Assembly (NCBI GenBank): GCA_009779995.1
Contig: WRDW01000022.1
Location: 1 to 32,260 of the forward strand
Reading direction: 5' to 3'
From: Oscillospiraceae bacterium
Lineage (GTDB): Bacteria > Bacillota > Clostridia > Oscillospirales > Acutalibacteraceae
DNA: 32,260 nt
Each line of letters begins with the position of its first letter. Position 1 is the stretch's first letter. The translations under genes were made by a program, and so were the position numbers. Under the pieces are notes generated by a model. That model had not been told where the DNA came from. It worked only from the letters and a program-made list of their open reading frames with translations, and did not search any database. Positions 183 to 13,697 of the stretch are shown in pieces.

Positions 183-214
183 AAAAAAATTACGGGCGGC
201 GCGCTGACCGCCCG
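183..214 (-). terminator. Rho-independent terminator of the minus-strand gene set
   Basis: Read on the minus strand, a 7-bp GC stem (CGGGCGG / CCGCCCG) with an 8-base loop is followed by TAATTTTTTT. It sits directly after the stop of the BNR-repeat gene and is the only clear terminator found for the minus-strand genes between 220 and 7646. Confidence 0.8.
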
Positions 215-219
215 CTTGG

Positions 220-1275
220 CTACAGTTCCTCATCAAACACCGTGGCCGCGATATAGCGCTCGCCCTCGGGGGTGTCGTTGTAGTAATACGCCACCACCAG
301 CTGGCCACGGGCGTTCTCCGCCATGCGCGGGTAGCCCAAATCCCAGCAGGCGGCGTCCTCGCGCAGGGCGCGCTCGGGGCCCCAGCTGCGGCCCTCGTCG
401 CGGGAGAAGCGGCAGCACATGCCGTAGGGCTCGCTGCGGCGGCCGTAGCAGAGGCACCACGCGCCGCCCTGCATCACAACCAGGGCGGGCGGGTTGCTGC
501 TGTTGCTGTCCGGCAGGATTTTCGCGACGAAGCGCCAGGTCTTGCCGTCATCGCCGGACTCGTACTGGGACATGTACCACTGCCGGAAGCCCAGCACGCG
601 CCGGGTCTGCCCGCGCACGAGCACGACCCAATCGCCGTTTTTGCGCCGCGCCGAGGCGGGCATGATCTCCCAGCCGGGGGGTTCGCCGCCCAGGCAGCCG
701 GCGAGCTCCCAATCGGAGCCGCCATTCGTCAATTTCGCGCAGACCACGCGGCCTTCATCGCCGTTCTCCTTCGTGACGGTGAGGAAGACCATCATCTCCG
801 AGGGCGAGAGCACGTGATAATCCGTGCGGGCGTTCACCCCCGTGAAGCCCATGGAGGGGATGCTGAACGGCCCCTGCCAGTGGTGCCCCCTGTCCAGGGA
901 GTACAGCCACCAGGAGGGCTTATCGGCCTCGGTGCCGGAGAGGGTGAAGCTGGCGCAGAAGTCCGGGTGGGCGAAATCAATCCCGCCGGGGCAGGGGAGT
1001 ATATCACTCGTTGAGACAGGCCCCTTGGTCTGGTCGGTGACATGCTTCACCGCCGGGCGCTCGATGCGCCAGGTCGCGCCGCCGTCCATGCTGCGGGCAA
1101 AGACCATGTAGCGCTCGCAGTCGGGCACCACGCTGTGGTGATCCTCCCAGACGTGGCTGTCCTCGCAGTCCTGGAAGGAGACGAGAATCTCGTCGCCCCA
1201 GCTCCAGCCGCCATGGTTGGCGGGCCAGCCCGCGTAGCGGCCATATTGCTTGTAGATGGTGTAATGCTGTTTCAT
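220..1275 (-). CDS. BNR/Asp-box repeat protein, sialidase-fold
   Basis: The 351-residue product is a probable six-bladed beta-propeller of the sialidase (neuraminidase) superfamily. Asp-box motifs of the S-x-D-x-G-x-x-W type are visible at residues 62-69 (SMDGGATW), 126-133 (SLDRGHHW), 240-247 (SGDDGKTW) and 291-298 (SRDEGRSW), with a degenerate one near 183-189. There is no signal peptide or membrane segment, so a cytoplasmic location is expected. The start is supported by CGGAGG seven bases upstream of the ATG. It is the last gene of the minus-strand set that begins with ceramidase-like genes and is followed by a terminator. Sialidase activity is not established: such propellers also occur in other glycoside hydrolases and in binding proteins. 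The context suggests action on an imported glycoside. Confidence 0.8.
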   Translation of the reverse strand: MKQHYTIYKQYGRYAGWPANHGGWSWGDEILVSFQDCEDSHVWEDHHSVVPDCERYMVFARSMDGGATWRIERPAVKHVTDQTKGPVSTSDILPCPGGIDFAHPDFCASFTLSGTEADKPSWWLYSLDRGHHWQGPFSIPSMGFTGVNARTDYHVLSPSEMMVFLTVTKENGDEGRVVCAKLTNGGSDWELAGCLGGEPPGWEIMPASARRKNGDWVVLVRGQTRRVLGFRQWYMSQYESGDDGKTWRFVAKILPDSNSSNPPALVVMQGGAWCLCYGRRSEPYGMCCRFSRDEGRSWGPERALREDAACWDLGYPRMAENARGQLVVAYYYNDTPEGERYIAATVFDEEL

Positions 1276-1310
1276 GCAATCCTCCGTTCTGTTGAACCTC
1301 TACACCACGG

Positions 1311-1338
1311 CCCCCCTACAGGGTCTCCGTAGGAGGGG
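1311..1338. repeat. Short CCCCTAC/GTAGG palindromic repeat
   Basis: CCCCCCTAC and GTAGGAGGGG form an imperfect hairpin in the 92-base gap between two minus-strand genes. It carries the CCCCTAC/GTAGGGG signature seen at several other gaps in this window. Confidence 0.5.
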
Positions 1339-1367
1339 CGTGTGCGCCGCATGGGGTTATTTGTGAT

Positions 1368-2252
1368 TTACCACTTGAAGTCGTAGAAGTGATAGTCGGC
1401 GATCACCTTGGCCGATGACGAACCGATGAACGTCCGCACGTCGATGATGTGGTCAAGCTTTACGCACTCGTCTGTCACGGGGTTGTAGGTCAGCACCGCC
1501 GTGCCCTTGAAGGTGCTGTAAGCGTTGTCGCGGGTCACGAAGGGGAGGCTCTGTGCGACCTCGAATACCTCCACGATGTCGATGACGTCGAAAATCTTCC
1601 CGTGCCAGCCGCTGATGGAGGCGGGGTTCGCCATATCGCGGATCGGGTCTTTTTCCTGGATTAACGTAATCGTAATCACATAGTTATCCCCGGATTTCAC
1701 GCAGGTGGCCGATTCGATCTTGCTCGTGTCCGTCAAAACACAGCCGACCTTGGCGCTGTCCGTGGGCATGGCGAACCACTTTGGGTGGTTTCCGGCGGTG
1801 TGCGTCCCCGGGCTCGACTGTTCATACGTCTCGGTAAACTGTTTCGCCAACCCGCTGACAGCGGCATACATGATGCCGTTCATGTCCACATTGCTCATGG
1901 TCTGCCAGTCATTGCTCGTATATGCCGGCGCATCGGTCTTGACCTTGTTGACCACCTTGGTGTAGGCCGCGAGGATTTCCGCCTTGCCCTGCGGCAGTGG
2001 AGGAACGACAACTGTGGTCGTCTCGCCCACCGAGGTCGTCTCGCCCTCTGTGGTCGGCTCTATCGATGTTTCGCCCTCGACGGTGGTCTCCCCCTCGACG
2101 GTGGTCTCGCCCTCGCCGGTGGTCTCCTCGGGGATGGTTGTCACCTCGGTGATTTCGCCCTCGCTGGTGTCGACGGGCTGCTTCGGGCCGCAGGCCGCGA
2201 AGAGCAGCGCCGCCGCCAGCAGCAGCGCCAGGATGGATAGCAGCTTTTTCAT
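1368..2252 (-). CDS. Lipoprotein with Thr/Glu-rich repeat linker
   Basis: The 294-residue protein starts with a lipoprotein signal peptide ending at lipobox FAAC (Cys21), so it should be anchored on the outer face of the cytoplasmic membrane. Residues about 30-85 are a low-complexity Thr/Glu linker with tandem EGETTV units, mirrored in the DNA by an 18-base unit repeated near 2072-2126. The remaining 200 residues form a globular domain I do not recognise. A Shine-Dalgarno AAAGGGG precedes the ATG. It lies between a ceramidase-like gene and the BNR-repeat gene in the same orientation, so it may work with them at the cell surface, for example in substrate capture. That role is inference. Confidence 0.75.
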   Translation of the reverse strand: MKKLLSILALLLAAALLFAACGPKQPVDTSEGEITEVTTIPEETTGEGETTVEGETTVEGETSIEPTTEGETTSVGETTTVVVPPLPQGKAEILAAYTKVVNKVKTDAPAYTSNDWQTMSNVDMNGIMYAAVSGLAKQFTETYEQSSPGTHTAGNHPKWFAMPTDSAKVGCVLTDTSKIESATCVKSGDNYVITITLIQEKDPIRDMANPASISGWHGKIFDVIDIVEVFEVAQSLPFVTRDNAYSTFKGTAVLTYNPVTDECVKLDHIIDVRTFIGSSSAKVIADYHFYDFKW

Positions 2253-2300
2253 TGTGGATACCCCTTTCGATAATGATTACTATACGCAATTTTTGTTTTC

Positions 2301-2326
2301 GGCGGGCCAAAGGCCCGCCGCCTACA
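2301..2326. repeat. GC-rich hairpin repeat with CCTACA end
   Basis: GGCGGGCC, a three-base loop AAA and GGCCCGCC are followed by GCCTACA. The hairpin lies between the lipoprotein gene and the ceramidase-like gene. No T-run follows it in the direction of transcription, so it fits the palindromic repeat family of this window better than a terminator. Confidence 0.5.
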
Positions 2327-2335
2327 AAACAATGC

Positions 2336-3784
2336 CTACGCCCTGATCCTCTCCAGCATGTCCTTCCAGGTGTCGGCGATCACCTGCGCCGCGTCCACGC
2401 CTACGCTCACGGTTTCTTCATAGTGCTTTCTGCCGTGCTGGTCGTGGGCGTTGACGAAGTAGGGGCGCTTGTCGTCCAGGAAGAAATCATTCGGCGGGAT
2501 GAGGTAGCCCAGCTCGTCGTCGCCCAGGCCGAACATGATCAAATCCGGGTCATTCGCGATCTCCAGCAGGGGCGTGGGGTTCATGGCGGAGCCGCCATTG
2601 GACGCCAGGTCCTCCTCCAGATAGCCGCCGTAGGCCAGCTCGGGGAACATCTCGCCCGGCACGGTGAGGATGCGCAGGTCGCCTATCTCAAAGTAGTTCA
2701 GCGCGGTTTTGGCGGAGAGCCCGAAGCGCCCCTTGCCGGTGGCCTGGAACTTCGCCGCGAGCACCTTCAGGATGCCGCCCAGCACCAGCAGCGTGTTGTC
2801 GCAGGCGAGGTAGATGTCCTGGCTCATGACACCGATCCTGGGCTCCAGCTTGTGCTCGTTTTCGACTGCAAGCGCAAGTTCGGCGATGCGGTGCCCGGCG
2901 ATCTCCGTGGCCTCCAGGTTGGGGACGTCCTCCTCGTGGGGATAGATCAGCCCGCCGATGAGCCCGTTGATGAAGATGACCTCGCCGCCGGTCTGCGCCT
3001 TGATGTCCTCCCGGAACCAGTAGACCCAGTCGGCGCTCATCTCCCGGTTCTTGCCGCCCATCATGCCGGGGTGGGCCGCGTAGTTGACGAGGTACACCGG
3101 CGCGCCGCCGTCAAAGGGGGCGAAGCGCAGGCGGGTGAGGATTTTGCTGTATACGATTGGCAGCCGGTAGTCGTCGTGGTAGCCCTCGGGCTCCTCGATC
3201 TGCCCGGCGTAGAGCTCGCCGCAGCGGCGGGTGTTGTAGGCCGTCTCGATGGCCTCGCAGATTTTGTCGTGCATCAGATCAATGAATTTCTTGTCCCGGC
3301 CGGATTTCGGCAGCTTGCCCCAGAGCCCGATGGTGTCGATCCCCGCGTGGTCGTGCGTGCCGAAGAAGTGCATCGCCCGGCAGCCGTGCCGCTTGGACCA
3401 CCCCGCCATGCGCTGCCGGATGACGTCGGCGTCGTAGCGCAAAAAGCCCACGCAGTCAATGCTTACCAGCACCAGCGCGCCCCGGCCCGCGTTGTCGTCG
3501 ATCCAGATGGCCGTGGCGCACTGGGGGTCGTGCATCCCGGTGATGGTCTTCGGCCCGTAGTAGCCCGCGATGTAGTAGCGCTCGCTGGCCACGTCGTCGG
3601 GCACCATCTCCTGCTTGGAGATCCCCACGGTGTAGTGCCCCGTCTTCGATTCCCCGGGCGGGATCCATTCCGCCTTGGGGATGGCGGGCGCGGGGCAGAG
3701 CTTCGCCTTGGTCTTGTAGTACGCCGCCGCCAGGTTTTCGATGGAGCCGACATACTTTTCGATCTGTTCGGTTACTTTTGCCAT
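2336..3784 (-). CDS. Neutral/alkaline ceramidase-fold protein, paralog 1 (divergent)
   Basis: The 482-residue protein matches the N-terminal catalytic domain of neutral/alkaline ceramidases and lacks the C-terminal domain of secreted ceramidases. Zinc-site motifs are recognisable: GTHDHAG (His144, His146), NYAAHPG (His238), VPGEMFPEL (Glu378) and DELGYLIPPND (Tyr427). The nucleophile motif of known ceramidases (G-D-V-S-P) reads G-L-I-Y-P here, with Tyr281 in the Ser position. It has no signal peptide, whereas known bacterial ceramidases are exported. CGGAGGTG lies just upstream of the ATG. It is the most divergent of three paralogs in this minus-strand set; the others have THCHA and GMITP motifs. 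The fold is fairly sure, but ceramidase activity is doubtful. Confidence 0.8.
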   Translation of the reverse strand: MAKVTEQIEKYVGSIENLAAAYYKTKAKLCPAPAIPKAEWIPPGESKTGHYTVGISKQEMVPDDVASERYYIAGYYGPKTITGMHDPQCATAIWIDDNAGRGALVLVSIDCVGFLRYDADVIRQRMAGWSKRHGCRAMHFFGTHDHAGIDTIGLWGKLPKSGRDKKFIDLMHDKICEAIETAYNTRRCGELYAGQIEEPEGYHDDYRLPIVYSKILTRLRFAPFDGGAPVYLVNYAAHPGMMGGKNREMSADWVYWFREDIKAQTGGEVIFINGLIGGLIYPHEEDVPNLEATEIAGHRIAELALAVENEHKLEPRIGVMSQDIYLACDNTLLVLGGILKVLAAKFQATGKGRFGLSAKTALNYFEIGDLRILTVPGEMFPELAYGGYLEEDLASNGGSAMNPTPLLEIANDPDLIMFGLGDDELGYLIPPNDFFLDDKRPYFVNAHDQHGRKHYEETVSVGVDAAQVIADTWKDMLERIRA

Positions 3785-3839
3785 GATTTCACCTCCGATG
3801 TAAATAAATATTTAATCAATTTCGTTCCGCGCATAATTC

Positions 3840-3858
3840 GGGAGGCAAGAAGCCTCCC
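3840..3858. repeat. GGGAGGC hairpin between ceramidase-like genes
   Basis: GGGAGGC and GCCTCCC flank a five-base loop, followed at 3884-3892 by CCCCTACAG. This again shows the CCCTACA signature of the dispersed palindromic repeats. There is no T-run, so termination is unlikely. Confidence 0.45.
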
Positions 3859-3886
3859 TTCGGTCGTGTCGCCTGTCGGCGAACCC

Positions 3887-5338
3887 CTACAGGCGTCCGA
3901 TAATCCCCAATATCCTCTCGAACGCCTGCGCCACACGCACAGCTGTCATCGGCCCGGCGGAGTTCGTCTCCTCGTAGTGCTTCCTGCCATGCCTGTCGAT
4001 GGGCTGCTTTACGAAAGGCTGCTCGTCGTCCAGCATGTAGTCGTTGGGCGGCAGGATGTAGCCCAGCTCGTCGCTGCCCAGGCCGAATACGATGAGGCCA
4101 GGGTCGTCCGCCAGTTCCCGCAGGGGCAGGGGATTTTTCTCCGGGCCGCCCATGGAGGCCTCCTCCGTGGGGAGATACCCGCCAAGCTGCAATTCCGGGA
4201 ACAATTCCCCCGGCACGGTGAGAATATGCACGTCGCCGATTTCGATATAATTCATCTCGGTCAAGACCGAAATGCCCAGCGGGCCCTCGCCGGTGGCGTG
4301 GCGCTCCCGGGGCAGCAGGCCGATGAGCCCGCCCAGCATGAAGAGCACATTGGCCAGCTCGATGTAGAAATCCTGCCGGATCAGGTTCACCAGGGGGACG
4401 AGCTCGCGCTCGGTTTCGATGCGCATGGCCGCCTTGGCGATCTCCTCCCCGGCCCATTGGCAGGATTCGAGGAAGTCCTCCGGGTTGATCTCCATGGGGG
4501 TAATCATGCCACCAATCGCGCCATTGAAATAAATCACCTTCGCGCCGCGCTCGGCCTCGATCTTCTCCCGCAGGAAGTGCACGTAGTCCGCGCTGACGGC
4601 CCGGTTGCGCTGGTCCATCACCTCGGGGTGCGCGGCGAAATTCAGCAGCCAGGTCTCCTTCGAGCCATCGTCAGGCGCGAAGCGCAATCTTGTCAGCGTC
4701 TTGCAAAAGACCTCCGGGGGGCGAATGTCTTTTTGGATGCCATCGGCCTCTATGCTCCCGGCATAGAGCCTGCCGTTTTTGCGTGAAGCCCAGGCCTGCT
4801 CGGCGGCGATGGAGGCCGCCCAATACAGGCGCTCCATGAAGGCCGGGTCGCGCCCGCTTGCGGGGAAGCGCCCGTAGATACCCATGGTATCCGGCCCGGC
4901 GTGGCAGTGGGTGGAGAACACGTTCACCGCACGGCACCCCGTTCTTTCGCAGAAATTCGCCAGCCGTTTGCGAATGACCAGCATGTCGTCCCGCAGCAGG
5001 CCCACGCAGTCCAGGGAGAGCAGCAGCAGCGCGCCGCGTCCCGTGTTGTCGTCGATGTAAATCGCGCCGGCGCGGATGTCGCTGTGGATGCTCGTCGCGG
5101 GCCGGTTCGTGCCGTAGCCCGCCAGCCAGCAGGGCTTCTCCTTGATTTCATCGATTGTAGGCGTGAAGGGCGCGCTGCCGAAGCCCACGGTGTAATATGG
5201 CCCCGGCGTATCCAGCGCGTCCCAAACGCCGTCGGGCAGGGGCGGCGGGGGCTTCACCCTCGCCTTGCGCTTGTAGTGCGCCGCAACGGCCTTCTGCATC
5301 CTCGGCAATTGCTTTGCTATGCTGTCCATGATGTCCAT
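3887..5338 (-). CDS. Neutral/alkaline ceramidase-fold protein, paralog 2
   Basis: The 483-residue protein is of the neutral/alkaline ceramidase N-terminal domain family. Visible motifs are STHCHAGPDTMG (His144, His146), NFAAHPEV (His237), VPGELFPEL (Glu378) and DELGYILPPND (Tyr427), matching the family's zinc ligands. At the nucleophile position GDVSP of ceramidases becomes GMITP, placing Thr280 where Ser is expected. No signal peptide is present. The frame extends to a GTG at 5350, but that GTG overlaps the Shine-Dalgarno sequence GAGGTG, so the ATG at 5338 is the better start. It is closer to paralog 3 than to paralog 1. Neighbours are a lipoprotein upstream and paralog 1 downstream on the same strand. 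The substrate is unknown. Confidence 0.8.
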   Translation of the reverse strand: MDIMDSIAKQLPRMQKAVAAHYKRKARVKPPPPLPDGVWDALDTPGPYYTVGFGSAPFTPTIDEIKEKPCWLAGYGTNRPATSIHSDIRAGAIYIDDNTGRGALLLLSLDCVGLLRDDMLVIRKRLANFCERTGCRAVNVFSTHCHAGPDTMGIYGRFPASGRDPAFMERLYWAASIAAEQAWASRKNGRLYAGSIEADGIQKDIRPPEVFCKTLTRLRFAPDDGSKETWLLNFAAHPEVMDQRNRAVSADYVHFLREKIEAERGAKVIYFNGAIGGMITPMEINPEDFLESCQWAGEEIAKAAMRIETERELVPLVNLIRQDFYIELANVLFMLGGLIGLLPRERHATGEGPLGISVLTEMNYIEIGDVHILTVPGELFPELQLGGYLPTEEASMGGPEKNPLPLRELADDPGLIVFGLGSDELGYILPPNDYMLDDEQPFVKQPIDRHGRKHYEETNSAGPMTAVRVAQAFERILGIIGRL

Positions 5339-5401
5339 AGGATAGCTCACCTCTTCGGGAGACGCACAGCCGTGAGCCTCTACATTTTTTGTGCGAAGTC
5401 A

Positions 5402-6175
5402 CTAATCAAATGCAAGATAGCCGTCATACCAATAGACGTTGATTTCGATCAATTTGCCATTGGAAAATGAATAGAATACCGAGCCGGTTTGGCTAGCTAT
5501 GTTGAAAATTTCATCGTCTGTGTATTCTATAATCTCATCCGGTCTGTATGCATAGAATAATCGTGTTATGCCCTCAGATTCCCGTTCGGAGCCTGCGAAA
5601 CCACCGTAGGCGGCAATCACTTTTTCTTTGCTGTCGCCGATCTTGATTCCTCTGATGAAATCAATCTTGTTGTCAGTGATCTTCGTCGAATACGGTTTAA
5701 TCCTTACGATTTTATCCCGCGATGTTACAGGGAATTCGGGCGCTTCACGCCATTCCATAGTGTAATTTTCCTCAGTGTCAAACGAGAGGCCTTCATCTCT
5801 TGAAACAAGGTCAAAAGAAACACCTTCGAATGCGGCGATCAAAGCAAAGTGTCCGCTGCTTATGCTAAAAATGGTTCCGAATAGTTTAACCGGCTCCCCG
5901 AAAACCGCCACCAGCTCGTTGACCGAAAACGGGCCTGGGCCAAACTTGCTGTCTATTTCTGAATAAGAAAACACTTTATATTCTTCCTTGTTGGTGGTCG
6001 CTTCTTCTGTAATCTCTTCTTCAGTGGTTTCTTCTTCAGTGGTAGATTCAGCAGTTGTTACGGTTTGCGATGGTTCCGAAGGTGCTTCGGGTTCGGACAC
6101 ATTACAACCCTCAGCGAAAAAAATCAATCCCGCCAGCAGACAAACCGCCAGCAAAACAGAGAGAATTTTTTTCAT
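5402..6175 (-). CDS. Lipoprotein with Thr/Glu linker, AT-richer than neighbours
   Basis: The 257-residue product has a signal peptide ending in FAEGC (Cys24), an imperfect lipobox, then an Ser/Pro/Thr/Glu linker to about residue 65 with EETTEEEITEE-type repeats. The mature part contains GIKIGDSKEKVIAAYGG, a motif style seen in small alpha/beta lipoprotein domains of Clostridia, and an earlier region FSVNELVAVFGEP that may be a second half-repeat. AAGGAG lies nine bases before the ATG at 6175; an in-frame ATG at 6184 is too close to it. The gene sits between ceramidase-like paralogs 2 and 3 and is visibly richer in A/T than they are, so it may have a separate origin. No specific function is recognised. 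Confidence 0.7.
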   Translation of the reverse strand: MKKILSVLLAVCLLAGLIFFAEGCNVSEPEAPSEPSQTVTTAESTTEEETTEEEITEEATTNKEEYKVFSYSEIDSKFGPGPFSVNELVAVFGEPVKLFGTIFSISSGHFALIAAFEGVSFDLVSRDEGLSFDTEENYTMEWREAPEFPVTSRDKIVRIKPYSTKITDNKIDFIRGIKIGDSKEKVIAAYGGFAGSERESEGITRLFYAYRPDEIIEYTDDEIFNIASQTGSVFYSFSNGKLIEINVYWYDGYLAFD

Positions 6176-6209
6176 GAGCAACATCTCCTTTGTAGTTTTT
6201 TTTGGTGCG

Positions 6210-7646
6210 TCAGCCCTTAAAATTCACCACACGCATCATCTGCGCAAAATTCTCAGCGATAATCTTCGCGGCGTTGGGCCCGGTGGAGTTGGTCTCCTCG
6301 TAGTGCCTGCGCCCGCCGTGGTCGGTGGCCCGCTCCAGGAAGGGGAGCTTTTCGTCCAGGATGAAGTCGTTGGGCGGGATGATATAGCCCAGTTCGTCGT
6401 TGGCCAGGCCGAAGATGATGAGGTCGGGGTCGTTCGCGATCTCCCGCAGAGGCTTGGGGTTGAGCTCCGGCCCGCCGACAGCGGCGACGTCCGCCTCCAA
6501 ATAGCCGCCGTAGGCCAGCTCGGGGAAGAGCTCGCCGGGCAGCATCAGGATATTGACGCCGTCGATGCTCATGTAGTTCATCTCGGTCTTCATGGTGACG
6601 TAGAGCGGGCCGTCCTTGCTGGGGAAGCGCTCGCGCGGCATGACCTTCAGCAGCCCGCACAGGGCGAAGACCAAGTTCTGGACTTCGATATAGAATTCCT
6701 TCCGGATGAGGCCGATGACGGGCGACAGCTTGCGCTCGTTCGTGATGGACATGGCCGCCTCGGCGGTTTTGATGCCCGCGACTTCCGAGGACTTGGTGGA
6801 TTCCCCGAAGCCCTCCACAACCGTCGGCGTGATCATGCCGCCGATCGCGCCGTTGAAGTAGATGACCTGCGCGCCGCGGTCCTTTTCGAGCTTGTCGCGC
6901 ATCCAGTGCACATAGTCGGCGCTCAGTTCCACGTTCTTGCTGCCCAGCACCTCGGGGTGGTTCTCGAATTTTAGTATGTAAATTTCTTTTCCCCCATCGC
7001 GGGGCGCGAAGCGCAGGCGGGTCAATTTATTTTCAAATACCTCCGGCAGGCGCTTATCCTGCTGAATGCCCTCGGTGGCGATGCTCCCGGCGTAGAGGTC
7101 GCCGTCTTTGCGCCTGGCGTAGGCGGCCTCGGCGGCCTGCTTGATGGCTTCAAACAGCAGCGCGAAGAAGTAGGGGTCGCGCCCCGTCTTCGGCAGCGGT
7201 CCCCAGAAGCCCATGGTATCGATGCTGGCGTGGCAGTGGGTGGACATGACGTGAACCGCCCGGCAGCCGGTGGTCCGGCAGAAGGGCCGCAGCATCGCGC
7301 GGATTTTCTCCACGTCGTTGTTCATGATGCCCACGCAGTCCACGGAGACCAGCAGGACGCCGCCGCGGCCCGAATTGTCGTCCAGCCACAGCGCCGTGGC
7401 GTAGACGGGGTTGAGGATGCCCTGGATGGGCTTGAAGAAGCCGTAGCCGGCCATGTAATACTTGTGGGTGAGCAGATTGGGCGGCGTGATGTTCGCCTTG
7501 GCCAGGCCCGCCGTGAAAAAATCAGAGCGAGCTTGGTCAGGGCAGTCCCACACGGGCTGCGCCAGGGGCGGCGGCCTGTAATTGATGGAACGCAGCTTGA
7601 AGGGCGTGGACAGCGCCTTTTCCAGCGCCTTGAGGGAATAGTGCAT
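6210..7646 (-). CDS. Neutral/alkaline ceramidase-fold protein, paralog 3 (first gene of the set)
   Basis: The 478-residue protein has the same ceramidase-type fold. Motifs are STHCHASIDTMG (His137, His139), KFENHPEV (His230), LPGELFPEL (Glu372) and DELGYIIPPND (Tyr421). The nucleophile motif is GMITP, with Thr273 in place of Ser. There is no signal peptide. GGAGG at 7655-7659 sits eight bases before the ATG, and a consensus promoter lies just upstream (7696-7724), so this is the promoter-proximal gene of the minus-strand set. Transcription diverges from three GPH-type symporters. I infer an intracellular zinc hydrolase acting on an imported amide- or ester-bearing compound; the reaction itself cannot be read from sequence. 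Confidence 0.8.
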   Translation of the reverse strand: MHYSLKALEKALSTPFKLRSINYRPPPLAQPVWDCPDQARSDFFTAGLAKANITPPNLLTHKYYMAGYGFFKPIQGILNPVYATALWLDDNSGRGGVLLVSVDCVGIMNNDVEKIRAMLRPFCRTTGCRAVHVMSTHCHASIDTMGFWGPLPKTGRDPYFFALLFEAIKQAAEAAYARRKDGDLYAGSIATEGIQQDKRLPEVFENKLTRLRFAPRDGGKEIYILKFENHPEVLGSKNVELSADYVHWMRDKLEKDRGAQVIYFNGAIGGMITPTVVEGFGESTKSSEVAGIKTAEAAMSITNERKLSPVIGLIRKEFYIEVQNLVFALCGLLKVMPRERFPSKDGPLYVTMKTEMNYMSIDGVNILMLPGELFPELAYGGYLEADVAAVGGPELNPKPLREIANDPDLIIFGLANDELGYIIPPNDFILDEKLPFLERATDHGGRRHYEETNSTGPNAAKIIAENFAQMMRVVNFKG

Positions 7647-7695
7647 GAGCTTTACCTCCGCCTGTCAATAAATTTTGGGACATTGCGCTTTATCC

Positions 7696-7724
7696 ATTGT
7701 ACCAGCACGGGGCGGCAAAGTCAA
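7696..7724 (-). promoter_or_regulatory. Sigma-A promoter of the minus-strand ceramidase-like gene set
   Basis: On the minus strand TTGACT (7719-7724) and TACAAT (7696-7701) are separated by exactly 17 bases. The first start codon follows about 50 bases downstream, at 7646. Confidence 0.8.
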
Positions 7725-7757
7725 GGGAAATCAAGTGCGTTTCATGATTTTTCTTGA
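7721..7757. promoter_or_regulatory. Candidate shared operator between divergent promoters
   Basis: TCAAGGGAAATCA (7721-7733) and TGATTTTTCTTGA (7745-7757) are inverted copies matching at 11 of 13 positions around an 11-base spacer. The outer ends overlap both -35 boxes, so a dimeric regulator bound here could control both gene sets together. Part of the symmetry is forced by the facing TTGAC boxes; the AAATCA/TGATTT part is not. No regulator gene is present in the window next to this locus. Confidence 0.5.
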
Positions 7758-7782
7758 CGAACCGGGTGTGGGCATGTATAAT
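7754..7782 (+). promoter_or_regulatory. Sigma-A promoter of the symporter/amidohydrolase operon
   Basis: TTGACG (7754-7759), a 17-base spacer and a perfect TATAAT (7777-7782) precede the first symporter start at 7811 by about 28 bases, which leaves a short untranslated leader. Confidence 0.85.
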
Positions 7783-7810
7783 AGATAAAATGAACAGAAG
7801 AGGTGCAATT

Positions 7811-9370
7811 ATGGCAATAAAAACGGAGGAGAAGGCCCCCGCCGCCGCGCCCCCGAAGGGGGTGGCTGAGCCCCCGAAGGGTCGGCGATACGTGGGCACG
7901 AAGGAGACCGTCGGCTTCATCATGTTCGCCGCCTCCCTGGACGTGCGGGTAGAGCGCAACAACGAGTGGATCGACAGGATCCTGTTCGTGGACAGGGGCC
8001 TGCAGGCGCTGTTCACGCCCATCCGGGGCATCTGGGACATGGTCAACGACATCTTTATGGCCGCCATCATCGAGAAAACCCGCACGCGCTGGGGCAAGTT
8101 CAAGCCCTACCTGGTGCTCTACCCCCTCTACGGCCTGCCCATGATGATGCTGCTGTACGCGCTGCCCTACGTCTTCTCCAACGCGCCCGGTACGGGCACG
8201 TTGATGTCCAAGGCCCTCGCCTGGGTCGTCATGGAGATGTTCAACGAGTTCACCGATACCATCGCCAGCATCGCCAAGCGGGGCATGAGGGCAAACCTCA
8301 CCCCCGACCCGGAGGAGCGGCTCTCCCTGCTGACCAAGGCAAAGCTGCTCAACATAGGCACCAACCTGCCCAAGCTGATCTTCCCCATCTTCCGGGACGT
8401 CATCTCCCGCAGCGCGAAGTATACGGCCATCGAGGCCAACACAAAAATGCGGGGGCTGTTCATGGCCTTCGGCGTGGGCACCCTGGCCATCAGCGGGGCC
8501 ATGGGGCTGTATTTCGCGATCGTCGGAAAAGAGCGCGTGTTCGACCCCCTGGGCGTGGAGCACGACAGGGCGCCCACGATCAAGGAATCCCTGGTCGCCC
8601 TGAAAAACAACCGGCCGATGTTCATGCTCATGATCTCGCAGATCCTGGGCAATATCAGCATCCAGAGTATGCTGGGCACCTACACGGATTCCGTGCTCAA
8701 CTTCGCCAACTTCGGCACGGTGTCGGGCATCCCCGGCAGCCCTATCGGCTATCTCGGCTATGCATACATAGGCAAGCTGCGGCAGCGCTTTTCCACCAAG
8801 ACGCTCTGGATCGTCTCGGAGAACATCAGCAAGCCGGTGTACGTCATGATCTACTTCTTCGGCATGATACGCACCAAAACCTATATACGGGGCAACAACC
8901 GCATGTATATGCAGCTGGTGCCCATGCTCATCGCCTTCGTCTTCGAGGATATGGCGCTCATGAGCCTGTACGCCCTGAAGAAGGTGCTGCCGGACGAGAT
9001 AGAGAACGAGATCATCGACTACGGCGAGTGGCGCAACGGCTTCCGCTCCGAGGCCATGGTGGGCACGCTCAAGGGCATCGCCCCGAAGATAGCGGGCATG
9101 GTCGGCAATACGATCAACAGCCTGCTGATGAAGCTCATCGGCTTCCAGGGCGGCCAGGAGTACCTGAACCAGAGCGTGAAGACCACCGACTGGATTTTTG
9201 CCATGGCCACCATCCTCCCCACGCTCACCGGCCTCATCTCGCTGATCCCCAAGTTCTTCTACAATATCAACCAGAAGGACCGGGAACAGATGTATACCGA
9301 CCTGGCCGCGCGCCGCGCCGCCGCCCTGGCCTCCCGCGGGGACGGCGCAAGCCCGGATACAGCCCAATAA
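7811..9370 (+). CDS. GPH-type (glycoside-pentoside-hexuronide) cation symporter, paralog 1
   Basis: The 519-residue protein is predicted to be polytopic and of the MFS_2/GPH symporter family, which couples uptake of glycosides, pentosides or uronides to cations. The family signature is seen at about residues 75-105: WDMVNDIFMAAI followed by EKTRTRWGKFKPYL, equivalent to the D-x-x-x-D and RTRWGRFRP region of MelB-like carriers. The N-terminus is a polar, Pro-rich tail of about 35 residues. The reading frame extends upstream to 7754, but that overlaps the -35 box; the ATG at 7811 follows AGAGGTG and lies downstream of the promoter. It is much closer to paralog 3 than to paralog 2. The substrate is unknown, but linkage to the ceramidase-fold genes suggests a common compound. 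Confidence 0.8.
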   Translation: MAIKTEEKAPAAAPPKGVAEPPKGRRYVGTKETVGFIMFAASLDVRVERNNEWIDRILFVDRGLQALFTPIRGIWDMVNDIFMAAIIEKTRTRWGKFKPYLVLYPLYGLPMMMLLYALPYVFSNAPGTGTLMSKALAWVVMEMFNEFTDTIASIAKRGMRANLTPDPEERLSLLTKAKLLNIGTNLPKLIFPIFRDVISRSAKYTAIEANTKMRGLFMAFGVGTLAISGAMGLYFAIVGKERVFDPLGVEHDRAPTIKESLVALKNNRPMFMLMISQILGNISIQSMLGTYTDSVLNFANFGTVSGIPGSPIGYLGYAYIGKLRQRFSTKTLWIVSENISKPVYVMIYFFGMIRTKTYIRGNNRMYMQLVPMLIAFVFEDMALMSLYALKKVLPDEIENEIIDYGEWRNGFRSEAMVGTLKGIAPKIAGMVGNTINSLLMKLIGFQGGQEYLNQSVKTTDWIFAMATILPTLTGLISLIPKFFYNINQKDREQMYTDLAARRAAALASRGDGASPDTAQ

Positions 9371-9389
9371 ATACATAAAGGGGTGCATT

Positions 9390-10934
9390 ATGGCAATAAA
9401 GGCCTTGAAGAGAAAAGAGAAGACCAAGGAGCCGGGAGGGCCGCCCAAAGGGCGGCGATACGTCGGCACGGCGGAGACGGTGGGCTTCATCATGTTCGCC
9501 GCCTCGAATGACGTGCGGCAGCCCAAGCCGGAGGGGGAGTGGATCGACAGGCTGCTGGACATCAGCAAGGGGACGCAGGCGCTGGTGCGGCCCATCATGA
9601 TCGCGTGGGACGTGATCAACGACCTGTTCGCGGCGGCGATCATAGAGAAGACCCGCACGCGCTTCGGCAAGTTCCGGCCCTACCTGCTGCTGTACCCCCT
9701 CTATGGCCTGCCGATGACCCTGGCCGTGTTCCTGCTGCCCTACCTGTTTTGGCAGACAAGCAACACCTTTTTGCCCAAGGTGGTGGCCTGGGCCGCGTTC
9801 AGCATGTTCAACGAGCTGACCGCCACCTTTTATGAGATCACCCGCATGGGGATGCTCGCCAACATCACGCCGGACCCGCAGGAGCGGCTGTGGCTGATCA
9901 CCAAGTCGAAGTTCCTGGCCATCGGCGCCTCCTGGCCCAAGCAGATTTTCAGGATTTTGCGGGACGTCATCTCGCGCAACACCGTGAAAACGGCCCTGGA
10001 GGTCAACGCAACGCTGCGCACCCTGTTCACGGTGATGGGCATCCTCACCATGTGCATCAGCGCGGGGATGTCGCTGTACTACGCGATGGTCTCCAGGGAG
10101 CGGGTGGTCGACAGCCAGAGCGAGGAGAAGCCGCCCAGCATCCGGGAATCCTTCGTGGGGCTGAAGAACAACCGCCCGCTGCTCATGCTGATGCTCTCGC
10201 TGGTGGTGGACGGCTTCAACATCCGCAGCCAGCTGGGCCTCTATGTGGATTCCGTCCTCAACTTCACCAACTTCGGCACGGTGTTCGGCATCCCCGGCGG
10301 GTTCATCAGCACGCCCAGCTACTTCTACGTGAAATGGCTGCGCGAGCGCTTCTCCACCAAGACGCTGTGGATCGCCGCGGAGAACATCACCAAGCCCTAC
10401 CAAATTTTAATTTATTTCTTCGGCATGATCAGGACGAAGACGCCCGCGAAGGGCAACGGGTTTTATCGGATGTACGGGCACCTGGTGCCAATGGTCTTCG
10501 CCTACATGGTAGACGACATGATCGCCATGACGCTCTACGGCACCAAGCGGGTCATCCCGGACGAGATACGCAACGAGGTGATCGACTACGGCGAGTGGAA
10601 GAACGGCTTCCGCAACGAGGCCATGGTGGGCATGATGCGCGGCTGGCCCGCGAAGATTTCCGGCGCGTTCGGTGCCTCCGTCACGGATATGATCGTGCAG
10701 ATGCTCGGCTTCCAGACCGGCGAAAACTTCCTGAAGCAGACAGAAAAAACGGCCAACGGCATCTTCGCCATGGCCACCATCGTCCCGGCGCTCACGGGCA
10801 TGGTGGCGCTGCTGCCCAAGTTCCTCTATCCCATAGACCAGAAGCAGCGCGAGATCATGTACGCGGAGCTCACCGAGCGGCGCGAGGCCACACTGGCTGC
10901 CATAGGCGTAAGGGAGGAGCGGACAGATGGCTAA
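9390..10934 (+). CDS. GPH-type cation symporter, paralog 2
   Basis: This 514-residue paralog of the preceding carrier begins 19 bases after its stop, with AAAGGGG before the ATG. The signature appears as WDVINDLFAAAI and EKTRTRFGKFRPYL. It differs from paralogs 1 and 3 in the N-terminal segment and in the region after the signature, which suggests another substrate or an accessory role. The stop overlaps the next start by eight bases, so translation is probably coupled. The family assignment is firm to the level of GPH/MFS_2; the transported compound cannot be inferred. Confidence 0.8.
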   Translation: MAIKALKRKEKTKEPGGPPKGRRYVGTAETVGFIMFAASNDVRQPKPEGEWIDRLLDISKGTQALVRPIMIAWDVINDLFAAAIIEKTRTRFGKFRPYLLLYPLYGLPMTLAVFLLPYLFWQTSNTFLPKVVAWAAFSMFNELTATFYEITRMGMLANITPDPQERLWLITKSKFLAIGASWPKQIFRILRDVISRNTVKTALEVNATLRTLFTVMGILTMCISAGMSLYYAMVSRERVVDSQSEEKPPSIRESFVGLKNNRPLLMLMLSLVVDGFNIRSQLGLYVDSVLNFTNFGTVFGIPGGFISTPSYFYVKWLRERFSTKTLWIAAENITKPYQILIYFFGMIRTKTPAKGNGFYRMYGHLVPMVFAYMVDDMIAMTLYGTKRVIPDEIRNEVIDYGEWKNGFRNEAMVGMMRGWPAKISGAFGASVTDMIVQMLGFQTGENFLKQTEKTANGIFAMATIVPALTGMVALLPKFLYPIDQKQREIMYAELTERREATLAAIGVREERTDG

Positions 10935-12462
10935 AAAGACGCAGGAGGAGGTTCAGCCTGCCCCTCCGAAAGGGAGAAGGTACATAGGCACGCTGGAGAA
11001 GGCGGGTTTCGTCGCCTTCGCCGCGTCCGTGAGCGTGAAGGTGGAGCGCAACGACGAGTGGATTGACAGGATCCTGTTTATTGACAGGGGAATGCAGGCG
11101 CTGTTTAACCCCATCCGGGCCGTCTGGGACATGGTCAACGACGTCTTTATGGCCGCCATCATCGAAAAGACCCGCACGCGCTGGGGTAAGTTCAAGCCCT
11201 ACCTGGTGCTCTACCCCGTCTATGGCCTGCCCATGGTGCTGCTGCTGTACGCGCTGCCCTATATCTTTCCCAACACGCCGGATTCCGGCACGATGATGTC
11301 CAAGGTTCTCGCCTGGGTTCTGATGGAGATGTTCAACGAATTCACCGACACCATTTCCAGCATTGGCAAACGGGGGATGCGGGCCAATCTCACGCCGAAC
11401 CCCGAGGAGCGGTTATCGCTGCTGACCACGGCGAAGCTGCTCAACAACTTCGGCGCCGATTCGCCCAAGCTCCTGTTCCCCATCTTCCGGGACGTCATAT
11501 CCCGCAACACGAAGCTGACGCAAATCGAGATCAACCAGAAGCTGCGCGGGCTGTTCATGGGCTTCGGCGTCGGCACCCTGATCGTCAGCGCGGCCCTGGC
11601 GCTGTTTTTCGCGGTGGTATCGAAGGAGCGCGTGTTCGACCCCCTGGGCGTGAAGGAGGACAGGGCGCCCACCATCAAGGAATCCCTGATTGCCTTGAAG
11701 AATAACAGGCCCATGTTCATGCTGATGCTCTCGCAGGTCCTGGGCGGCATCAGCATCCGCAGTATGCTGGGTACCTATACGAACTCCGTGCTCAATTTTG
11801 CCAACTTCGGCACGGTCTCGGGCATCCCCGGCGAGCCCTTCCACTATATCGGCTACTCCTACATAGGCTGGCTGCGGGCGCGCTTCTCCACCAAAACGCT
11901 CTGGATCGTCTCGGAGAACATCAGCAAGCCCGTGTACATCATGATCTACTTCTTCGGCATGTTACGCACCAAGACGCCCGTGCGGGGCAACAACCGCATG
12001 TACATGCAGCTTTGGCCCATGCTCATCGCCTTCGCCTTCGAGAATATCGCCCTCATGAGCCTGTATGCCCTCAAGAACGTCATCCCGGACGAGATCGAAA
12101 ACGAGATCATCGACTACGGCGAGTGGAAGAACGGCTTCCGCTCCGAGGCCATGGTGGGCACCCTGAAAGGAATCCCCCCGAAAATCGCGGGCATCTTCGG
12201 CAACACCATCACGAGCATTTTGATGAAGTACATCGGCTTCCAGGGCGGCATAGACTACCTGAACCAGACCGAGAAGACCACCGACGCCATCTTCGCCCTG
12301 GCCACCATCGTCCCAACGCTGTTCGGCGTCATCGCGCTGATCCCCAAGTTCTTCTACAACATCAACCAGAAAGACCGCGAGCAGATGTACGCGGACCTGG
12401 TGCAGCGCCGCGCCGCCGCCCTGGCCTCCCGCGGCACAACCATAGAGGAGATCATCACATGA
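10927..12462 (+). CDS. GPH-type cation symporter, paralog 3
   Basis: This 511-residue symporter begins inside the end of paralog 2 (ATG at 10927, previous stop at 10932-10934), preceded by GGGAGGAG. The signature WDMVNDVFMAAI and EKTRTRWGKFKPYL is present. Long stretches match paralog 1 nearly residue for residue, for example EWIDRILF and TIKESL, which points to a fairly recent duplication with paralog 2 lying between the two. The stop overlaps the amidohydrolase start as ATGA, so the last two genes of the operon are translationally coupled. Confidence 0.8.
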   Translation: MAKKTQEEVQPAPPKGRRYIGTLEKAGFVAFAASVSVKVERNDEWIDRILFIDRGMQALFNPIRAVWDMVNDVFMAAIIEKTRTRWGKFKPYLVLYPVYGLPMVLLLYALPYIFPNTPDSGTMMSKVLAWVLMEMFNEFTDTISSIGKRGMRANLTPNPEERLSLLTTAKLLNNFGADSPKLLFPIFRDVISRNTKLTQIEINQKLRGLFMGFGVGTLIVSAALALFFAVVSKERVFDPLGVKEDRAPTIKESLIALKNNRPMFMLMLSQVLGGISIRSMLGTYTNSVLNFANFGTVSGIPGEPFHYIGYSYIGWLRARFSTKTLWIVSENISKPVYIMIYFFGMLRTKTPVRGNNRMYMQLWPMLIAFAFENIALMSLYALKNVIPDEIENEIIDYGEWKNGFRSEAMVGTLKGIPPKIAGIFGNTITSILMKYIGFQGGIDYLNQTEKTTDAIFALATIVPTLFGVIALIPKFFYNINQKDREQMYADLVQRRAAALASRGTTIEEIIT

Positions 12463-13697
12463 CCAATACATACGCGGCGCTCATAGGCATCGCCGAGGCC
12501 ATGCCCGTGATCGATACCCACGAGCACCTGCCCCTGAAGGCCCATTTCCAGGGCAAAAAGCCGGATATTCTGGCGGACTACCTCTCCCACTACATCTCTT
12601 CCGACCTGCGCGCCGCGGGTATGACCCTGGAGGACTACGACAGAGCCCGCGACGCCGGCATTGACCTCATGGAGCGCTGGACGCTGCTCGAACCCTGGCT
12701 GGATCAGGTGAGGAACACTTCGTACTACAAATCGCTGCAAATCGCCATGCGTAAAATTCACGGCATTGACGACATGACCGGCGACACAATCCGGGCGCTC
12801 AATGAGAGCTTCGTCAAGAGCGTGAGCGACCCGGAGTACAAGCGCCGCATCATGAAGGACATGTGCCATATCGAGAAGTCCATCGACTGCGTGGGCGACG
12901 ACCCGGAATTTCTTGACGACCTGGCGACGCCCGCGCCCGATGAATTTTTCGCGCGCACGTTCTACCCCGAGGCTTTCGCCATGCCCTGGGTTACCGTGGA
13001 GCAAAAAAATCTTGACGACTACTGCGAGGCCTACAGGGCGAGGTACGAGCTCTTCAAGGGCGCCGGCGCGGTGGCGCTGAAGATCGCCATGGCCTACGAC
13101 CGCACGCTGCACATCGCCGAGGTGGGCTATGACGAGGCCGCCGCCCTGTTTGCCGCCTATGACAACAACAGCGGGCGTTTCCCCCAGCCGCTGCAGGATT
13201 ACATGCTGCGCTACGCCCTCACCCTGGCCGATGAGGACGGCTTCCCCGTGCAGATTCACACCGGCATCCAGGAGGGCATGTTCAACGACATCGAGAACAG
13301 CAACCCCATGCTATTGAAAAATATTTTCCGGCAGTATCCCAACGTGCCCTTCGACTTATTTCATATAGGCTACCCCTACCAGAGCGAGCTCATCACCCTG
13401 GCGAAGTACCACCCCAATGTGCACATCGACATGTGCTGGGCGAACATCATCTCGCCCTTTGCCTCCCGGAATTTTTTCAGGGAGGCCCTGGACGTGATCC
13501 CCTACACGAAAATTTTCGCCTTCGGCGGGGACTACCTGTTCTTCGACGGCGTGGTAGGGCACTTGCAGCTGGCCAAGCAGAACATCTGCGAGGTGCTGGC
13601 CGAGAAGGTCGATCGAGGCGAGTACAACATGGCCCTGGCGGAGAAGATTCTGCGGGCCGTGTTCTACGGGAACGCCAAGCGGGTGTTCGGGCTGTGA
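12459..13697 (+). CDS. Metal-dependent amidohydrolase (amidohydrolase_2 / uronate-isomerase-like TIM barrel)
   Basis: The 412-residue protein belongs to the amidohydrolase superfamily. DTHEHLP near the N-terminus gives the metal-binding His21-x-His23. Further candidate ligands are Lys208 (ALKIAM), His267 (VQIHTG), His302 (LFHIGYP) and Asp358 (FGGDYLFF). The layout resembles PF04909 and the uronate isomerase branch. The start is the ATG at 12459, preceded by GAGGAG at 12445-12450 and overlapping the symporter stop as ATGA; an upstream extension of the frame runs through the symporter gene and is not used. It is the last gene of the plus-strand operon and probably acts on the imported compound or its hydrolysis product. 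The exact reaction (decarboxylation, hydrolysis or isomerisation) is open. Confidence 0.8.
   Translation: MTNTYAALIGIAEAMPVIDTHEHLPLKAHFQGKKPDILADYLSHYISSDLRAAGMTLEDYDRARDAGIDLMERWTLLEPWLDQVRNTSYYKSLQIAMRKIHGIDDMTGDTIRALNESFVKSVSDPEYKRRIMKDMCHIEKSIDCVGDDPEFLDDLATPAPDEFFARTFYPEAFAMPWVTVEQKNLDDYCEAYRARYELFKGAGAVALKIAMAYDRTLHIAEVGYDEAAALFAAYDNNSGRFPQPLQDYMLRYALTLADEDGFPVQIHTGIQEGMFNDIENSNPMLLKNIFRQYPNVPFDLFHIGYPYQSELITLAKYHPNVHIDMCWANIISPFASRNFFREALDVIPYTKIFAFGGDYLFFDGVVGHLQLAKQNICEVLAEKVDRGEYNMALAEKILRAVFYGNAKRVFGL

Follow-up and report, generated by a model that had tools for sequence, protein, structure and literature searches.

A divergent gene cluster of three ceramidase-fold proteins and three GPH symporters in an Oscillospiraceae genome, a candidate locus for the use of a sugar derivative

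Why should three paralogous ceramidase-fold proteins face three paralogous GPH symporters across a single intergenic region? The arrangement occupies positions 183 to 13,697 of a 32,260-nucleotide stretch of DNA, the window, which is contig 22 (WRDW01000022.1) of a 1.79 Mb, 66% complete assembly of an Oscillospiraceae bacterium (genome G000). An original prediction, made from the letters of the window, had described the cluster and proposed that its products import a common substrate and hydrolyze it in the cytoplasm. Our analysis confirms that the divergent cluster is real, with every part where it had been placed: the minus arm runs from 7646 down to 220 in the order CerA, LP2, CerB, CerC, LP1 and BNR, and the plus arm runs from 7811 to 13697 in the order GPH1, GPH2, GPH3 and amidohydrolase. 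Paralogy also holds within both sets, with 44–50% identity among the three Cer proteins and with GPH2 and GPH3 being 55% and 78% identical to GPH1. The reading that we prefer, tentatively, is that the locus serves to catabolize a small, polar derivative of a sugar, with the Cer proteins acting as cytosolic zinc hydrolases, most likely amidases.

The relation of CerA (478 amino acids, 6210..7646), CerB (487 amino acids with a GTG start, 3887..5350) and CerC (482 amino acids, 2336..3784), all on the minus strand, to known ceramidases is remote but significant, as judged by profile comparison. CerB and CerC match the ceramidase model PF04734 at 24.7 and 22.8 bits, below its curated cut-off of 32.1, and CerA, which is assigned by paralogy, has no PF04734 match at E ≤ 1e-2; the model NF041649 scores 14.4 on CerB against a cut-off of 1200. 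As a single query, CerB finds no solved ceramidase at E ≤ 1, and a family profile built from a 76-row alignment (A3; residue numbers are those of CerB) matches the solved neutral ceramidases 4wgk (E 8e-12) and 2zws (E 3e-9). The alignable portion corresponds to the N-terminal catalytic part of these enzymes. Residues invariant in 76/76 rows include T147, H148, H150, D154, H241, D255, E382, Y431, H458, Y459 and E461, and the positions that we take to be the ceramidase zinc ligands (His, His, Glu and Tyr) are H148, H241, E382 and Y431. The two His, H148 and H241, are matched in a strong stretch to the THTH motif and the His that ceramidases conserve; the counterparts of E382 (in PGE) and Y431 in 4wgk, PGEF and HYITT, lie in a stretch that aligns only weakly, at 0.6 bits. 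The Cer proteins thus appear to keep the zinc-site residues of ceramidases.

They differ from ceramidases in other respects. The invariant D154, an additional Asp after the HxH motif, is Ala in 4wgk and Gly in 2zws. The ceramidase Ser nucleophile, which we presume to lie three residues beyond the final aligned Gly in 2zws, corresponds to column 283, where the 76 rows hold Ile in 67, Val in 5 and Asp in 4; this column was placed by ungapped extension, as the profile alignment stops three residues short, and four rows are gapped one column before it, making a few placements uncertain. A profile made from a fragment, meant to carry the comparison across this motif, matched no ceramidase. The Cer proteins probably lack the Ser nucleophile. 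No second Pfam domain was matched on CerA, CerB or CerC at E ≤ 0.01, the C-terminal ceramidase domain included, and at 478–487 amino acids they are short compared with the 646–688 of the solved ceramidase chains. None of the three has a hydrophobic N-terminus by a simple hydropathy script, which is not a signal-peptide predictor. Judged by eye, some relatives do look exported, namely the Cer proteins of two other loci (L025 and L027), with lipoprotein-like beginnings, and a second type of Cer found in the ruminant loci, whose N-terminus resembles a signal.

The three paralogues are separate lineages. A pattern scan of public genomes yielded 175 stretches confirmed by tblastn, with 79 loci kept, and in a FastTree tree of 144 sequences CerA, CerB and CerC form three clades, each with support of 100 and each with its own orthologues: CerA with those of loci L006 and L007, CerB with those of L005, L006 and L007, and CerC with those of L005 and L006, the contig-cut CerC of L007 being too short to enter. 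We therefore regard the three as a maintained set. The layout of the window recurs in L006, from a Bacillota metagenome-assembled genome, which carries a membrane protein of family f2 and one GPH gene on one strand and, on the other, CerA, CerB, a glyoxalase-like gene, CerC, LP1 and BNR. L007 holds a lipoprotein gene, CerA, CerB and CerC, and the gene facing these is not a GPH; L005 holds CerB and CerC on a contig with no GPH gene. As a separate observation, a fourth, distant Cer gene of the window's own genome (contig 6, 10873–12114, locus L139; E 1.7e-55) stands apart, next to apparent TIM and Obg genes.

Conservation in L006 extends to the control region. The gap of 164 bases between CerA and GPH1 holds two good sigma-70-like sites back to back: TTGACT-17-TACAAT with TG before the −10 element for the Cer arm (7724–7696, minus strand), and TTGACG-17-TATAAT for the GPH arm (7754–7782, plus strand). 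The corresponding region of L006 keeps both, the Cer-arm site as TTGACT, 17 bases ending in TGG, and TACAAT, and the GPH-arm site as TTGACG-17-TATAAT. In the motif scan as a whole, promoter-like sites numbered 8 vs 5.7 ± 2.6 in shuffled sequences and terminator-like sites 19 vs 11.0 ± 3.4; it is their position and their conservation in L006, rather than these counts, that make the two promoters credible. Just downstream of BNR lies a terminator-like hairpin on the minus strand (192..215; 9 pairs, 7 of them G-C, then the T-run AATTTTTTTC), and the paired promoters and terminator that had been predicted are thus all recovered.

All three transporters (plus strand) pass the cut-off of 27 bits for MFS_2 (PF13347), with GPH1 (7811..9370) at 106.6 bits when scored on 7814–9370, GPH2 (9390..10934) at 125.4 and GPH3 (10927..12462) at 125.3; GPH2 overlaps GPH3 by 8 bases, and GPH3 overlaps the amidohydrolase gene by 4. 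None reaches the TIGR00792 cut-off of 231.35 (131.5, 135 and 137.5 bits for GPH1 to GPH3), and they form a subfamily of their own within the MelB-like symporters. The GPH tree places GPH1 and the L006 gene together as a pair (support 98), joined by the near relative of GPH1, GPH3 (100), while GPH2 groups with L156, another paralogue of its own genome (80). D76 and D80, which align to MelB and which we take to be its cation-binding Asp pair in helix II, are kept in 57/57 subfamily sequences that are ungapped at these sites. Helix-I position 40 is filled in 56 subfamily sequences, by Asp in 49, Lys in 2, His in 1 and Ala in 4, and the four Ala holders are GPH1, GPH2, GPH3 and the L006 protein; L156, despite grouping with GPH2, keeps Asp. 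Such a pattern suggests a shared change in what the transporters tied to CerA, CerB and CerC may bind.

As an aside, the window's genome is unusually rich in GPH genes, with 29 MFS_2 matches (a few being pieces of one gene) in its 66%-complete 1.8 Mb assembly. Tandem GPH groups beside that of the window are found on its contigs 10, 26 and 45, and on contig 16 a GPH gene apparently split over two frames (L168:8276–9761) lies near a cluster of GH84, SIS and kinase genes.

Do Cer and GPH genes travel together more widely? Among 120 genomes of the family, scored with the Cer profile at E ≤ 1e-60 and a GPH-subfamily profile at E ≤ 1e-100 (up to 12 candidates scored in each genome), 19 carry Cer, 20 carry the GPH subfamily and 18 carry both, with Cer alone in G043 and GPH alone in G002 and G098. 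The Fisher p-value of this overlap is 3e-18, for genomes that are related and for a test that is not independent, all 12 sequences of the GPH profile having come from Cer loci. In the order at large, Cer was found in 10/394 genomes, three of them within the family and also holding the GPH subfamily. Physical linkage is occasional: read by hand on fragmented assemblies, Cer and GPH lie within 10 kb of each other in 5 of the 18 shared genomes (G000, G102, G015, G056 and, at ~9 kb, G057), and a single conserved Cer–GPH operon was rejected on this count. Over 103 Cer loci (the window and L006 included; duplicates L113, L119, L124–L126 and L137 set aside), a profile built from the GPHs of these same loci found 20 GPH genes in ~719 kb within 4 kb of Cer vs 6 in ~815 kb at 4–10 kb, or 16 vs 5 when counted by locus, with L118 in both (p 0.008). 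We conclude that GPH is a repeated, not a general, partner of Cer.

The neighborhoods of Cer relatives elsewhere bring in a recurring sugar theme. Throughout a large ruminant-gut clade, Cer is usually divergent to a GNAT gene, and in 42/103 loci this GNAT family (f1) has a member no more than 8 kb from Cer. One version of the ruminant-gut locus has f2, sialidase-like BNR_2 proteins, a Kdo-cytidylyltransferase-like gene and an unknown protein of 403 amino acids, the last two in 17 loci. A second version has a gene resembling N-acetylglucosamine (GlcNAc) kinase, a SIS sugar isomerase and a GH84 beta-N-acetylglucosaminidase, found no farther than 8 kb from Cer in 19, 18 and 17 of the 103 loci, respectively, a few of these in other clades. 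In other clades, two known GlcNAc-use genes also occur near Cer above their cut-offs, NagA in L130 (273 bits, cut-off 226) and NagB within two genes of Cer in L010 (241 bits, cut-off 237); NagB-like (L027), N-acylglucosamine 2-epimerase-like (L138) and GlcNAc-kinase-like (L127) genes score below theirs. Genes typical of GlcNAc-use loci (NagA, NagB, GlcNAc kinase and GH84) are thus neighbors of other Cer family members.

BNR (220..1275, minus strand, 351 amino acids), a BNR/Asp-box propeller protein, matches BNR_2 (PF13088) at 50.8 bits against a cut-off of 31.4, in common with sialidase-like proteins. Its only solved relative found, 5hx0, is named uncharacterized and has no assigned function, and the protein differs from sialidase-like BNR proteins in having no hydrophobic N-terminus. 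In 11/103 loci, from three Cer clades, a BNR homologue is present within 8 kb of Cer, and one adjoins a GPH-subfamily gene in G102, making BNR a repeated member of such loci.

The amidohydrolase (12459..13697, plus strand) is of the Amidohydro_2 family (PF04909, 71.2 bits, above cut-off) and has an HxH near its N-terminus. Its N-terminal part is weakly similar to the uronate isomerase UxaC (2qpx, 4i6v), below the cut-offs of the UxaC models PF02614 (22.7 bits, cut-off 25) and NF002794 (42.9, cut-off 387). The nearest homologue found is 67% identical and belongs to the same genome as L007, at another locus, where its neighbors are a GH78 rhamnosidase, a GH4 glycosidase and a URO-D-family gene; only 6 of the 120 family genomes hold a homologue at E ≤ 1e-20, and among the 103 loci an amidohydrolase was seen beside Cer in the window alone. 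We regard it as a gene of glycoside loci and not as a constant component of the Cer set, contrary to the place it had been given as a locus member.

Two lipoproteins complete the minus arm. LP1 (1368..2252, 294 amino acids) has a hydrophobic N-terminus with a lipobox-like FAAC and a homologue at the same place in L006; LP2 (5402..6184, 260 amino acids) has an equally clear hydrophobic N-terminus by the hydropathy script, and none of the genes called in the scanned loci encodes a homologue. A lipoprotein next to Cer is not a rule of the family: lipoproteins made up 6/127 adjacent co-directional genes vs 27/1118 others (p 0.14), a count that missed LP2, which the gene caller had cut short. The claim that none of the enzymes bears an export signal is supported by the hydropathy script for CerA, CerB, CerC and BNR and is less clear for the amidohydrolase, which has an in-between N-terminal hydropathy value of 1.94.

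In the reading that we prefer, the GPH symporters would import a sugar derivative together with a cation, and CerA, CerB and CerC would, in the cytosol, remove the N-linked acyl group of an amino sugar or of a compound like it, using one zinc ion and a zinc-activated water with an acidic base in place of the ceramidase Ser nucleophile. BNR and the amidohydrolase may work on the same compound or its products, and the lipoproteins would lie on the external side of the membrane. The order originally proposed, uptake first and then hydrolysis in the cytosol, fits the lack of a hydrophobic N-terminus on the Cer proteins and BNR, with substrate and reaction being conjectural. Amide chemistry on an amino sugar is our leading guess because of the ancestry of the fold and the neighbors found in other loci. 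A bolder and more doubtful version would have the Cer proteins form a new cytosolic family that deacylates imported amino-sugar compounds with a ceramidase zinc site and no Ser nucleophile, the three paralogues splitting the substrate range or forming one hetero-oligomer, served by GPHs with an altered helix-I residue.

Several observations weigh against this reading. Amino-sugar genes are not found next to CerA, CerB and CerC themselves, the kinase–SIS–GH84 cluster of their own genome being on contig 16. Amino-sugar hits near vs far from Cer, 8/208 (8 hits in 6 loci) vs 1/336 outside the ruminant-gut clade and 36/180 vs 3/337 within it, where many loci are close kin, are biased upward by queries picked from the near genes. 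Cer-linked GPHs of other clades keep Asp-40 in 8/8 cases with a residue there, so that Ala characterizes this clade and does not go with Cer linkage as such. MFS_2 proteins are encoded by 5/103 direct Cer neighbors vs 3/103 distant genes, in 56 loci mostly outside the ruminant-gut clade (L142 excepted) and with the distant genes drawn from 364. The GPH subfamily is frequent away from Cer, also in tandem, and the seven Cer genomes of the order that belong to other families gave 0/7 GPH-subfamily matches at E ≤ 1e-100, with up to three candidates scored per genome. As for the original prediction, three Cer genes facing three GPH genes is not a conserved unit, as L006 has one GPH and L007 a non-GPH gene opposite its Cer arm. 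A search for the same neighborhood in other genomes, which had been proposed as a check, succeeds in L006, with its divergent layout and both promoters, and fails in G048 (locus L013), the only same-genus genome of the 120, reported as 98% complete, where the single Cer match at E ≤ 1e-60 belongs to another clade.

These points bear differently on the alternatives. The Cer proteins could be esterases or lactonases of a sugar-acid or uronate locus, with the amidohydrolase as a uronate-type isomerase or lactonase, an explanation that we hold to be rather doubtful and yet a serious rival, because a nickel-dependent hexonate epimerase lies directly downstream of BNR in the Cer arm of L006 (617 bits, cut-off 500), a context that fits sugar acids as well, and because of the weakly UxaC-like amidohydrolase. 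A hydroxypyruvate-isomerase-like gene (below cut-off) upstream of CerB and CerC in L005 adds to it, as does the GPH family name, which includes hexuronides among others. The sub-threshold UxaC scores speak against a uronate pathway, no further uronate gene was recognised in the two arms, and across the wider Cer family it is amino sugars that recur.

That the two arms are independent, their divergent layout being an inherited neighborhood without shared function, is in our view unlikely. A genome so well stocked with GPH-type genes, the many tandem GPHs away from Cer, and the L007 and L005 loci without a facing GPH speak for it. Conservation of the layout and of both promoters in L006 argues otherwise: in one further genome at least, the two arms go together, as had been supposed. 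So does the restriction of Ala-40 to the four Cer-linked GPHs of this clade, with L156 keeping Asp, and the recurrence of Cer–GPH neighborhoods in several separate Cer and GPH lineages. Far less probable is a role of the Cer proteins in sphingolipid breakdown, as ordinary ceramidases or lipid amidases. Homology to neutral ceramidases and the conserved zinc-site residues favor it. Ceramidase function was rejected as the likely one on scores below or outside the ceramidase models, short chains with no C-terminal domain match, Ile, Val or Asp at the presumed Ser position, and a location, with no hydrophobic N-terminus, beside sugar transporters. "Ceramidase-fold", as these proteins were first called, should not be taken to mean ceramidase. 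Phage origin was also considered, and a viral scan gave no relative.

Import-and-hydrolyze sugar loci are well known as a kind, and what is new here is the composition of the locus and the enzyme subfamily. A literature search, with most subscription journals outside its scope, turned up no account of these enzymes or of a locus like this among the papers listed, in line with the earlier statement that no pathway of this composition is known to have been described. The Cer family is common in metagenome-assembled genomes of gut and rumen Clostridia and easily misnamed ceramidase. Should its members prove to be sugar deacylases, many annotations would be wrong, and a new step of amino-sugar use in gut bacteria would become testable with small soluble proteins.

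Among the surrounding genes, several families recur. Membrane protein family f2 (~480–516 amino acids, motif GWGMRGTNLGGE) is found beside GPH, BNR and Cer genes, at L006:793–2304, L116:5160–6710, L162:9290–10792 and in 17 ruminant-gut loci; two representatives had no Pfam match and one no NCBIfam match. The Kdo-cytidylyltransferase-like gene is conserved between BNR-type genes and the 403-amino-acid protein in L037, L038, L044 and 14 similar loci. Family f20 (~440–660 amino acids, mostly with a signal-like start, alpha/beta-hydrolase-like by eye, and with no Pfam match in the one representative scanned) lies near both Cer (L041, L045, L051, L059, L060, L117, L122 and L135) and GPH (L190, L193, L212, L214 and L222). 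Finally, Cer directly follows an alkaline-phosphatase-like gene in L011, L017, L020, L028 and L128, the first four of which also have a very large protein encoded divergently, with a dockerin in the representative scanned.

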